From assembly GCA_002712305.1 (NCBI GenBank), contig PATE01000025.1:1-30861 (forward strand): a stretch of 30,861 bases of DNA. The letters are read 5' to 3'. The DNA is from Gemmatimonadota bacterium. GTDB taxonomy: Bacteria; Latescibacterota; UBA2968; UBA8231. The position numbers were made by a program, and so were the translations under genes. Positions within the stretch are counted from its first letter, which is position 1. Every line of letters begins with the position of its first letter. A model generated the notes under the pieces. The model had not been told where the DNA came from, made no database searches, and worked only from the letters and a program-made list of their open reading frames with translations. This document shows positions 5,513 to 8,687 of the stretch, piece by piece.

Positions 5513-6010
5513 TCACTGCTCCTCAATCGCCTTCAACAATCTCGGAATCAGATAGAATCTCAATTGTCCTGCCCCGCGATCGATCCGGATCCAGTCGCTG
5601 GCGCCGAAATCGATGCACGCCACACCGGCGGTGGGAAGGCCGACCTGGGCACCACACAATTGGCCGATCCACTCCTCCATCCCCGGATTGTGGGCGATGA
5701 CCAGAACACACTCCGCCCCTGAGCCGTTGGCCTCCAACGTGCTGTGCAGGGCGGCCGGTGGCGCCAGATACAAGCCCTCGTCGTACTTCACTTCCGGGGC
5801 CGACAGGAACGGCAAGACGCCCTCGGCCGTCTCTCGAGCACGATGTGCTGCCGAACAGAGCACCAGGGTGGGCGTCGTGCCGGCGGCGATGGCCCGACCC
5901 ATCCGTGCCAAATCGCCTCGACCGCGCTTGTTCAGCACCCGGTCGAAGTCCTCCTGACCGGCCACGGACCAGTCAGATTTCGCATGTCGCATGACGATGA
6001 GTGTCTTCAC
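5513..6010 (-). CDS. sixA: SixA-type histidine phosphatase
   Basis: A 165-residue member of the histidine phosphatase (phosphoglycerate mutase-like) superfamily. The N-terminal LIVMRHAKSDW carries the RHA signature (Arg8, His9, the phosphorylated His). It is followed by LNKRGRGDLARMG, LVLCSAAHRARETA with the conserved Ser-Arg environment, and IAHNPGMEEWIG with the second catalytic His. The length and RHAKS variant fit the SixA branch, whose E. coli member dephosphorylates phosphohistidine in phosphotransfer proteins. Here the substrate is unknown and no histidine kinase is nearby. The start is GTG at 6010, since the reading frame begins directly with the beta-strand; AAGGA about 10 bases upstream may be the ribosome-binding site. 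It converges on the epimerase gene and diverges from the YjbQ-like gene, so it is probably a single-gene unit unrelated to polysaccharide synthesis. Confidence 0.88.
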   Translation of the reverse strand: MKTLIVMRHAKSDWSVAGQEDFDRVLNKRGRGDLARMGRAIAAGTTPTLVLCSAAHRARETAEGVLPFLSAPEVKYDEGLYLAPPAALHSTLEANGSGAECVLVIAHNPGMEEWIGQLCGAQVGLPTAGVACIDFGASDWIRIDRGAGQLRFYLIPRLLKAIEEQ

Positions 6011-6048
6011 GAGAGGTTTTCCTTGGTTGCCTGCGATTTTACCCGGAT

Positions 6049-6083
6049 CTATCTTGTAGACCGGGCCTATTTTGTAGAACCGG
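6049..6083. promoter_or_regulatory. Imperfect direct repeat in a divergent intergenic region
   Basis: CTATCTTGTAGACCGG (6049-6064) and CTATTTTGTAGAACCGG (6067-6083) are near-identical copies 18 bases apart, between the divergently read SixA-type and YjbQ-like genes. The position suits a tandem operator or paired promoter elements, but no standard -35/-10 pair could be assigned with confidence. Confidence 0.3.
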
Positions 6084-6143
6084 CACGCCTGTCAGCGCAA
6101 ATCGTCTCCCTTCCCCAAAGTTACCTCCCCGCCCCACGAGCAT

Positions 6144-7214
6144 ATGTCTGAACCGCTAGAGGTAACCGTCGACATCGTGCCCTCGTCACGATACGAGTTG
6201 ATCGATGTGGCGCCGCGAGTTCGCGAGCAGGTCGGCGACGCGCTCAATGGCTATCGCAAGGTGCTCTACTGCTCTCATCATACGACGGCGGGGTACCTCG
6301 AACAGGGTGTCACTTCTCGACTGGGCACAACCGATGCGCAGTTAGATCCTTTCTTCAAATTCTTTCAGCAGTTGTTTCCGCACAATGCGGGCTACCACCA
6401 CGACCAGATGCAGCTGCGAGACGAATTGTCCGAGCAGCAGAAGGCGTGCGAGCCGGTCAATGCGGATTCGCATCTGACCTTTATGGGAGCGGGGCTGAAG
6501 AATTGTGTCACCTATCTGAATCGTCCCGATGAGTCCGTCTACTTCGTCGAACTCGATGGCGTCTACAACGATGTGCATCGCCAGCGTCGAACGACGGTTC
6601 TCGGTTTTGATGGCGAAGACATCGTGCACCGCGAGCGCATCCAGGTGCCTGTCGCATCCGATCATCTCATCGAATCACACAATCTGAAGGACCGTCGCTA
6701 CGGGTTGTTCCCCCTGTTCGAGGAATGGCTCGATCGCTACGGGATCGAAAAGGGGCGAATCGACATTCGTCTGGCGCCGGAAGAGCGCGATGTGGGGTTG
6801 ACGGTGAACGAGTACGAGACGCTCCTGGTGCGGAACGATCTGCCCGAAGTGGTGCGTGATCCTCTTCGATACATGGTTCGTCGAGGGCGTAATCTGTTGA
6901 AGGATCCGGGCGCGATCCCAGAGAAGACGCGGGACTACGCGACCTATGACCTTATTCATCTCTACAACGAGATGATGGAACACCTGCCTTTCGGCCGTTC
7001 CGTCGTCGACAGGATCGTGGCGGTCATGTCGACACCTGCGGCACTCATGCTGCGTCTCAAGCGCAATGTATCTCTGCTGGTTTCCGATGGCGGTGGCAAG
7101 ACGAATGGGGGCCGCATCGTGCAGGGTACGTACCAAACGCCGATCCTGGTTCAGCATCATAAACCGGCAGATGGCGTGTGCCAGATGGATGTGACGCTAC
7201 GTCGTTTCCAGTGA
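6144..7214 (+). CDS. Tandem YjbQ/UPF0047-like protein
   Basis: A 356-residue protein, more than twice the about 140 residues of YjbQ (UPF0047), a small trimeric family for which weak thiamine-phosphate synthase activity has been reported. Residues 1-160 align by eye with a whole YjbQ domain: CSHHTTAGY (45-51 region), the FFKFFQQLFPHNAGYHHD helix, NADSH (106-110), and an ending that resembles the last strands but lacks the usual GTWQ. Residues 165-356 look like a second, diverged copy: VGLTVNEYETLLVRND (217-232) corresponds to the segment after the family His, which is absent here, while GRIVQGTYQ (323-331) restores the GTWQ-like signature. The start ATG at 6144 has only a weak GAG upstream. 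The gene stands alone and ends in a strong terminator. A single YjbQ domain with a large insert is an alternative reading. Confidence 0.75.
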   Translation: MSEPLEVTVDIVPSSRYELIDVAPRVREQVGDALNGYRKVLYCSHHTTAGYLEQGVTSRLGTTDAQLDPFFKFFQQLFPHNAGYHHDQMQLRDELSEQQKACEPVNADSHLTFMGAGLKNCVTYLNRPDESVYFVELDGVYNDVHRQRRTTVLGFDGEDIVHRERIQVPVASDHLIESHNLKDRRYGLFPLFEEWLDRYGIEKGRIDIRLAPEERDVGLTVNEYETLLVRNDLPEVVRDPLRYMVRRGRNLLKDPGAIPEKTRDYATYDLIHLYNEMMEHLPFGRSVVDRIVAVMSTPAALMLRLKRNVSLLVSDGGGKTNGGRIVQGTYQTPILVQHHKPADGVCQMDVTLRRFQ

Positions 7215-7280
7215 CGTTACCGCTCGTCGATCTGCCATCTGACGCGTCGCCCATAGCCGATCTGTCTTCTGCGTCCGGTC

Positions 7281-7314
7281 GGCCTGGAGCCAAAACTCCC
7301 GGCCCCTTTTTTTT
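7281..7314 (+). terminator. Rho-independent terminator after the YjbQ-like gene
   Basis: GGCCTGGAG (7281-7289) pairs with CTCCCGGCC (7296-7304) with one mismatch and a CCAAAA loop, followed by eight T (7307-7314). It separates the YjbQ-like gene from the phosphomannomutase gene, whose start is only about 20-30 bases on. Confidence 0.88.
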
Positions 7315-7343
7315 AGACCTTCACCGCAACGAATGTGACTGTC

Positions 7344-8687
7344 ATGCGTGTCGATCCTTCGATCTTCAAGGCGTACGACATCCGGGGAATCTACCCCAGC
7401 CAACTCGATGAAAACACCGCCAGAGGCGTTGGTCGCGCCTTTGCAACGTATCTGAAGCCTGCCCAGGTAGTGGTGGGGCGCGACATGCGCCTCTCCAGTC
7501 CGGCCGTGTGCGCGGCTTTGCTCGAAGGCCTGACCCAGCAGAAGGTGAATGTCATCGACATCGGCATGGTCAGTACCGACCAGTACTACTATGCCTGTGC
7601 CACGCTCAATCTACCCGGGCTGATGGTCACTGCGTCGCACAACCCACCCGAATACTGTGGGTTCAAGATGGTAAGGAAGATGCCTTATTTGCTGTCCGGC
7701 GACGAAGGGATCCAGGATCTGCGGCGGATCATCGAGACCGACGACTACGCCAACGCTCCAGGCGAAGGGCGTATTGAGCAACGTGATCTGAGCGCCGGAT
7801 TCGTCGACTGTGTCCTGGGTCTCGTCGACACCGAACGAATGCGCCCCCTCAAGGTGGTGGCCGACGCAGGCAATGGCATGGTGGGGCCCATCCTCAAACG
7901 GGTCTACGATCGATTGCCCGTCGATCTGGTGGGAATGTATCTCGATCCAGATGGATCGTTGCCCAATCACGGGCTCGACCCGATGAAACAGGAGAATCGG
8001 GATGAACTGGAACGTCGTGTGGTCAGCGAAAACGCAGCGATTGGTTTTGCCTTTGACGGCGACGGGGATCGCTTCTTTGCCGTCGATGATCGGGGTCAGT
8101 TCGTTCCAGGAGACTTTCTCACGGCCCTGATGGGCTGCTACATGCTCGAGTGCGAACCAGGAGCCAAAGTGATCTCTGACGTTCGCTGCTCGTGGGTCGT
8201 GCGTGATCGGATAGAAGGAGCCGGGGGTCGTTCACTGGTTGAGCGTGTGGGCCATTCCTTCATCAAGCCCCGAATGTTCGAAGAAGAGGCGATCTTCGCA
8301 GGTGAATTGTCGGGGCATTACTACTTCCGAGATTTTTTTGGTGCCGACTCAGGCATCGTGCCCTCGCTGATTCTGCTGCAGATGTTATCGGATCGCGGTG
8401 GCGAATCGCTGTCTCGCCTGCTGTCCTCGATCGAGGATCGATACTTCATCTCCTGGGAGATCAACTCGCGCGTCGAGGATCCGCAGGCCAAACTCGAGGA
8501 GTTGGCCCGCCGATATGGCGATGGCCGACTGGAGCAGATCGACGGGATCTCCGTGTCCTACGAAGATTGGCACTTCAACGTGAGGGCCTCCAACACAGAA
8601 CCCCTGCTGCGGCTGAATCTGGAGGCGCTGACCCAACAGCGCATGGAAGACAAGCGCGACGAGGTTCTGGCGATCATCCGCGCTTGA
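7344..8687 (+). CDS. Phosphomannomutase/phosphoglucomutase
   Basis: A four-domain alpha-D-phosphohexomutase of about 447 residues, typical for PMM/PGM (ManB/AlgC type). Motifs appear in order: FKAYDIRGIYP at the N-terminus, VVGRDMRLSSP, the phosphoserine loop TASHNPPEYCGFKM, the metal loop FDGDGDRFFAVD, the sugar-binding GELSGHYYF, and the phosphate-binding RASNTEPLLRL near the C-terminus. All catalytic motifs are intact. It interconverts hexose-6-phosphate and hexose-1-phosphate in the cytoplasm, feeding GDP-mannose or UDP-glucose synthesis. ATG 7344 is preferred; a GTG nine bases upstream (7335) is the alternative, and neither has a clear ribosome-binding site. It opens the second block of the polysaccharide locus directly after the upstream terminator, so a promoter must lie inside or very near the terminator or its readthrough must matter. 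Confidence 0.95.
   Translation: MRVDPSIFKAYDIRGIYPSQLDENTARGVGRAFATYLKPAQVVVGRDMRLSSPAVCAALLEGLTQQKVNVIDIGMVSTDQYYYACATLNLPGLMVTASHNPPEYCGFKMVRKMPYLLSGDEGIQDLRRIIETDDYANAPGEGRIEQRDLSAGFVDCVLGLVDTERMRPLKVVADAGNGMVGPILKRVYDRLPVDLVGMYLDPDGSLPNHGLDPMKQENRDELERRVVSENAAIGFAFDGDGDRFFAVDDRGQFVPGDFLTALMGCYMLECEPGAKVISDVRCSWVVRDRIEGAGGRSLVERVGHSFIKPRMFEEEAIFAGELSGHYYFRDFFGADSGIVPSLILLQMLSDRGGESLSRLLSSIEDRYFISWEINSRVEDPQAKLEELARRYGDGRLEQIDGISVSYEDWHFNVRASNTEPLLRLNLEALTQQRMEDKRDEVLAIIRA

Follow-up and report, generated by a model that had tools for sequence, protein, structure and literature searches.

Profile comparisons indicate that the protein encoded by the forward-strand gene at positions 6144..7214 (356 codons, ATG start, with same-length homologues) consists of two UPF0047/YjbQ-related modules in one chain, with the signature motifs of the YjbQ domain divided between them; judged by alignment, this division is genuine and, in a set of 72 homologues with identities as low as ∼40%, fixed. 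The YjbQ domain is very widespread and has no settled physiological function. The gene lies in a window of 30,861 nt (the whole stretch of DNA that was analysed), which is contig PATE01000025.1, positions 1 to 30,861 of the forward strand, in assembly GCA_002712305.1 of a Gemmatimonadota bacterium (GTDB lineage Bacteria; Latescibacterota; UBA2968; UBA8231).

The tandem protein belongs to a real, so far unnamed protein family that is present in two bacterial phyla, since the same protein recurs at the same length in the host's GTDB family and in Acidobacteriota. The initial annotation had pointed to same-length homologues as a check on the two-module arrangement, and these are indeed found in 24 of the 25 host-family genomes (46 to 100% identity) and, by profile search, in 55 of 396 genomes of Acidobacteriota, where the proteins comprise ∼350 aa wherever the contig is long enough and are always fused. 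A Thermoanaerobaculales genome, within Acidobacteriota, carries one tandem relative, 45% identical. The sole host-family member without the tandem gene, G040 (locus L041; a 73% complete draft), carries an atypical classic YjbQ. No tandem protein was found in the other families of the host phylum, even in a search with a 35-sequence profile, and neither plasmids nor viral contigs yielded a relative; PADLOC returned no match. An in-frame 501-residue extension upstream of locus L023 was dismissed as a spurious GC-rich frame. A description of a two-domain YjbQ was not found in the open-access literature.

A profile of the full-length protein gives two separate, nonoverlapping matches to YjbQ, at residues 8 to 139 and 188 to 351. 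The N module (residues 4 to 163; 6153..6632, + strand) is recognized by hhalign and by TIGR00149 as a UPF0047/YjbQ homologous domain that lacks the NE and GTWQ motifs. Residues 2 to 168 align with a set of classic YjbQ proteins from these two phyla, the reference used for both halves, with an hhalign P value of 6e-10, which becomes 1.7e-11 when the N module is compared with an enlarged YjbQ profile of 53 sequences. Because the alignment reaches the last strand, where VYFVELDG...RQRR of the N module corresponds to YFCEFDGPRxR of YjbQ, the N half is a complete domain. The C module (residues 164 to 355; 6633..7208, + strand), identified by hhalign and by PDB profile matches, is a diverged UPF0047/YjbQ domain without HTT. 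Its homology is weak from the window protein alone, and the P values, 6e-5 for the alignment of residues 188 to 351 with YjbQ residues 19 to 129 and 1e-4 against the 53-sequence profile, rest on the 72 homologues. The score of the C half against YjbQ, 34.6, compares with 13.4 +/- 2.4 (maximum, 25.6) for 120 column shuffles, with 10.6 for the reversed alignment, and with a maximum of 27.2 among 58 unrelated neighborhood families, from which two larger scores, those of the tandem family itself, were left out. When the C-half profile was run against 177,635 PDB sequences, the best two matches were 1vmf (E value of 0.054) and 1vph (E value of 0.094), both YjbQ proteins, with TxNE in register with the C module and GTWQ in register as a weak second segment. 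Each of these E values is weak; a classic YjbQ query matches only nine PDB sequences, and it is very unlikely that two of the nine would rank first by chance. Local PDB matches to IS605 OrfB (E values of 0.01 to 0.2) were dropped, as they disappeared with deeper profiles. Thus, profile-profile comparison, PDB profile matches, and conservation uphold the earlier proposal of two YjbQ modules, and the halves each match UPF0047 when compared separately, the C half weakly but consistently. The direct comparison of the N and C modules revealed no similarity (P value of 0.23), so that a duplication cannot be told from a fusion of two old YjbQ lineages.

Existing family models capture this protein poorly. 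The window protein reaches the cut-off of no Pfam or NCBIfam model: the Pfam search gave no match, the gathering score of PF01894 not being attained (the best E value among 35 tandem homologues is 1.3e-5), and the NCBIfam model TIGR00149 matches residues 11 to 90 with an E value of 1.8e-4 and a score of 21.2 bits, far below its cut-off of 67.75. Both modules nevertheless align with UPF0047/YjbQ (PF01894 and TIGR00149; structures 1vmf, 1vph, 1ve0, 1xbf, and others), and the tandem chain carries each main signature motif once. Classic YjbQ has one module of ∼135 aa per chain, whereas the 356-aa tandem protein has two, and among the 72 homologues HTT, NE, YxH, NxxxH, GTWQ, and DGPRxR are not found together in one module. 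Also unlike classic YjbQ, the first module has an insert of ∼18 residues between YxH and NxxxH, and the second contains an insert at residues 229 to 303 (∼75 residues; 6828..7052, + strand) that shows as a length difference, is predicted from a low-confidence model to be mostly helical, and carries an invariant YAxYD motif.

Six motifs are near-invariant in classic YjbQ (HTT, NE, YxH, N...H, GTWQ, and DGPRxR), and each of them is near-invariant in one module of the 72 sequences but missing or changed in its partner module, which bears out the complementary signatures described initially. The N module contains, all on the + strand, HTTAG at residues 46 to 50 (6279..6293; H46, T48, A49, and G50 conserved at 100%, T47 at 97%), YHHD at residues 84 to 87 (6393..6404; Y84 at 100%, H86 and D87 at 99%), which aligns with YxH, NADSHL at residues 106 to 111 (6459..6476; N106, H110, and L111 at 100%), which aligns with GNxxAH of YjbQ, and DG...RxR at residues 138 to 148 (6555..6587; D138, G139, R146, and R148 at 100%), which aligns with DGPRxR; its signature residues (H46, T47, T48, Y84, H86, N106, H110, D138, G139, R146, and R148) are thus conserved at 97 to 100%. 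The NE site is replaced by E/D-Q at positions 53 and 54, and GTWQ has given way to variable residues ahead of a conserved PVYF strand. The C module lacks YxH and N...H, as well as HTT, in place of which it has ERDVG (residues 214 to 218; 6783..6797, + strand; E214 at 96%). It retains TVNEYET at residues 220 to 226 (6801..6821, + strand; N222, E225, and T226 at 100%, T220 and E223 at 99%), a kept TxNE that aligns with TINE of YjbQ, and GTYQ at residues 328 to 331 (7125..7136, + strand; G328 and Q331 at 100%, Y330 at 92%), which aligns with GTWQ and mostly carries Y where YjbQ has W. The initial annotation had listed HHTT and NADSH segments without a GTWQ-like ending for the first half, where only GTWQ itself is gone, and ERDVG and GTYQ for the second, and all of these are found; the split is more complete than it saw, because the second half also keeps TVNEYE (residues 220 to 225), lost in the first. 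The invariant additions of the C module are E225, T226, D232, Y265, A266, D269, P333, and Q337. Near its end, R346, conserved at 97% in the homologues and replaced by Cys in the window protein (7179-7181), may be a remnant of the Arg of DGPRxR, so that the division of motifs would not be perfectly clean.

Such an arrangement could have arisen if a YjbQ domain was duplicated or if two YjbQ domains were fused. The N module would then have kept the histidine-bearing part (HTT, YxH, and NxxxH) together with the DG...RxR strand, and the C module would have kept TxNE and GxYQ, gained the insert, and acquired invariant residues of its own, with the two motif sets meeting in one functional site, either within a chain or between chains. 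On the simplest reading, each half supplies what the other is missing, and the chain therefore holds one full set of YjbQ residues; to judge from the motifs, a composite active site made from both modules is plausible. We infer that the two-module protein is an enzyme and give roughly even odds to its being a fused, internally specialized YjbQ enzyme whose halves have divided the ancestral site. YjbQ is a trimer, and if its threefold packing persists, N and C modules cannot take turns around a ring of three: either all motifs of a site would come from within the tandem pair, or the assembly would have changed, or the two module types would form separate rings; separate N and C rings would leave no ring with the full motif set. 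A more far-reaching version, in which a former homo-oligomer became an obligate two-domain chain, each domain lost half of the catalytic signature, and the composite site built from both was accompanied by a new substrate and by an assembly other than the threefold ring, has somewhat less than even odds. AlphaFold2 models from three input sequences have pLDDT values of 31.1 for the full protein and 42.8 for the C half, and for the latter, low-confidence model Foldseek and VIA-align gave no trustworthy fold match.

The best-surviving alternative, which we regard as unlikely, is that the N module with its His residues forms the active site alone, perhaps in a three-module ring, and that the C module is structural or regulatory and has a binding site of its own. 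Every conserved histidine of the signature falls within the N module, N modules packed in threes would require no composite site, and several invariant residues of the C module (E225, T226, D232, YAxYD, and Q337) are foreign to YjbQ. However, the N module is devoid of the invariant GxW of YjbQ, and the C module keeps precisely the YjbQ motifs that the N module has lost (N222, E223, G328, and Q331), which would not be needed in a purely structural domain. The two halves are also equally conserved (mean majority frequency in the 72 sequences of 0.62 for the N half and 0.63 for the C half), so that the C half is no decaying relic. This similarity and the invariant polar residues N222, E225, T226, D232, D269, Q331, and Q337 disfavor the suggestion, made in the initial annotation, that the second half is merely structural.

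It is highly improbable that the protein combines one YjbQ domain with an unrelated C-terminal domain whose GTYQ and TVNE resemble YjbQ motifs by chance. The C half of the window protein on its own matches no family, and individual C halves reach an E value of only 0.0063 in Pfam, but the commonest match of these halves is to PF01894 (6 of 35), no other family matches them better, the profile tests link the C half to YjbQ, and the two matching segments are collinear and conserve the positions of the motifs.

Another proposal with very little probability, marginally less than the preceding one, is that the tandem protein serves as the thiamin-phosphate synthase of its host, replacing ThiE. According to PMC11551756, which cites Morett 2008, overexpressed E. 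coli yjbQ compensates for the loss of thiE; with that E. coli protein the tandem form has distant homology and the HTT, YxH, and NxxxH residues in common. In PMC7954711, the function of YjbQ is listed as unknown. A search of the 25 host-family genomes, which are drafts and in some cases far from complete, took in ThiE, ThiC, ThiG, and ThiM. ThiE was not found, apart from one marginal match of 27.7 bits in genome G058, consistent with the proposed replacement. However, ThiC was not found either, nor was ThiM above the cut-off, and ThiG gave only partial matches, none covering more than about a third of the profile. With ThiC, full-length ThiG, and ThiM missing, the substrates of the synthase are probably neither made nor salvaged. 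ThiC and ThiE are present in the searched sister families of the host class. E. coli YjbQ is a promiscuous thiamin-phosphate synthase, whereas the family that hosts the tandem protein appears, from its gene content, unable to make thiamin, and the lack of these enzymes makes thiamin-phosphate synthesis by the tandem protein unlikely. Least probable of all, and excluded on the basis of sequence, is the main alternative of the initial annotation, one YjbQ module carrying a large insert, in which GTYQ, a motif absent from the N half and found only at the C terminus, would be the missing N-module strand: residues 8 to 139 and 188 to 351 each align independently with most of the YjbQ profile, the N half, whose global alignment takes in the last strand and DG...RxR, already has the GTWQ-bearing strand, and the C half contributes a helix, a TxNE strand, and terminal strands of its own.

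In the host family, the tandem gene is flanked by a divergent gene for a SixA-type histidine phosphatase (5513..6010, - strand; PF00300) and a codirectional downstream gene for a phosphomannomutase/phosphoglucomutase (7335..8687, + strand; PF02878-02880 and PF00408), both conserved in synteny and followed by genes for a flippase, an O-antigen ligase-type protein (polymerase), and glycosyltransferases. This order is seen in nearly all host-family genomes examined (window positions 5513-8687; loci L051-L069). A His-phosphatase is linked to polysaccharide genes in this family. Window positions 1-20011 hold a large polysaccharide biosynthesis cluster with glycosyltransferases, a flippase, and a member of the O-antigen ligase family; asparagine-synthase-like and carbamoyltransferase-like proteins and an initiating sugar transferase were also named there by eye from sequence. 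In Acidobacteriota, the neighbors of the tandem gene vary and no polysaccharide linkage is seen, the one exception being locus L027, where an O-antigen-ligase-like gene lies 13 bases downstream. The neighborhood, not being conserved in Acidobacteriota, was dropped as a functional clue for the whole tandem family, and because of this variation the envelope-polysaccharide link is local and suggestive only. From gene order, the best guess for the host-family substrate is a phosphorylated small molecule tied to envelope polysaccharide synthesis, probably something other than thiamin phosphate.

In an unrooted maximum-likelihood tree, the proteins of the host family cluster in a single, fully supported group amid the diversity of Acidobacteriota. 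This grouping and the absence of the protein from the other families of the host phylum make a single transfer into the host-family ancestor likely, as far as an unrooted tree can tell. The sole copy in genome G061 (locus L070, G061:C80) is, unlike those of its genus mates, of the Acidobacteriota type (46% identical) and located outside the polysaccharide locus. It groups with an Acidobacteriota sequence (100/100) and would therefore represent either a second transfer or a contaminating contig; this draft genome has 10% contamination. The idea that the tandem form generally replaces classic YjbQ was abandoned, as classic YjbQ, counted by hand in Acidobacteriota, is equally frequent in genomes with the tandem protein (45 of 55) and in the others (273 of 341).

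The tandem family is a clean example of how, within one protein, complementary loss followed a duplication or fusion, and it has been retained across two phyla. It also provides a direct way to probe the YjbQ active site: a YjbQ variant of this kind has two separately mutable signature halves and would show which motifs must cooperate.
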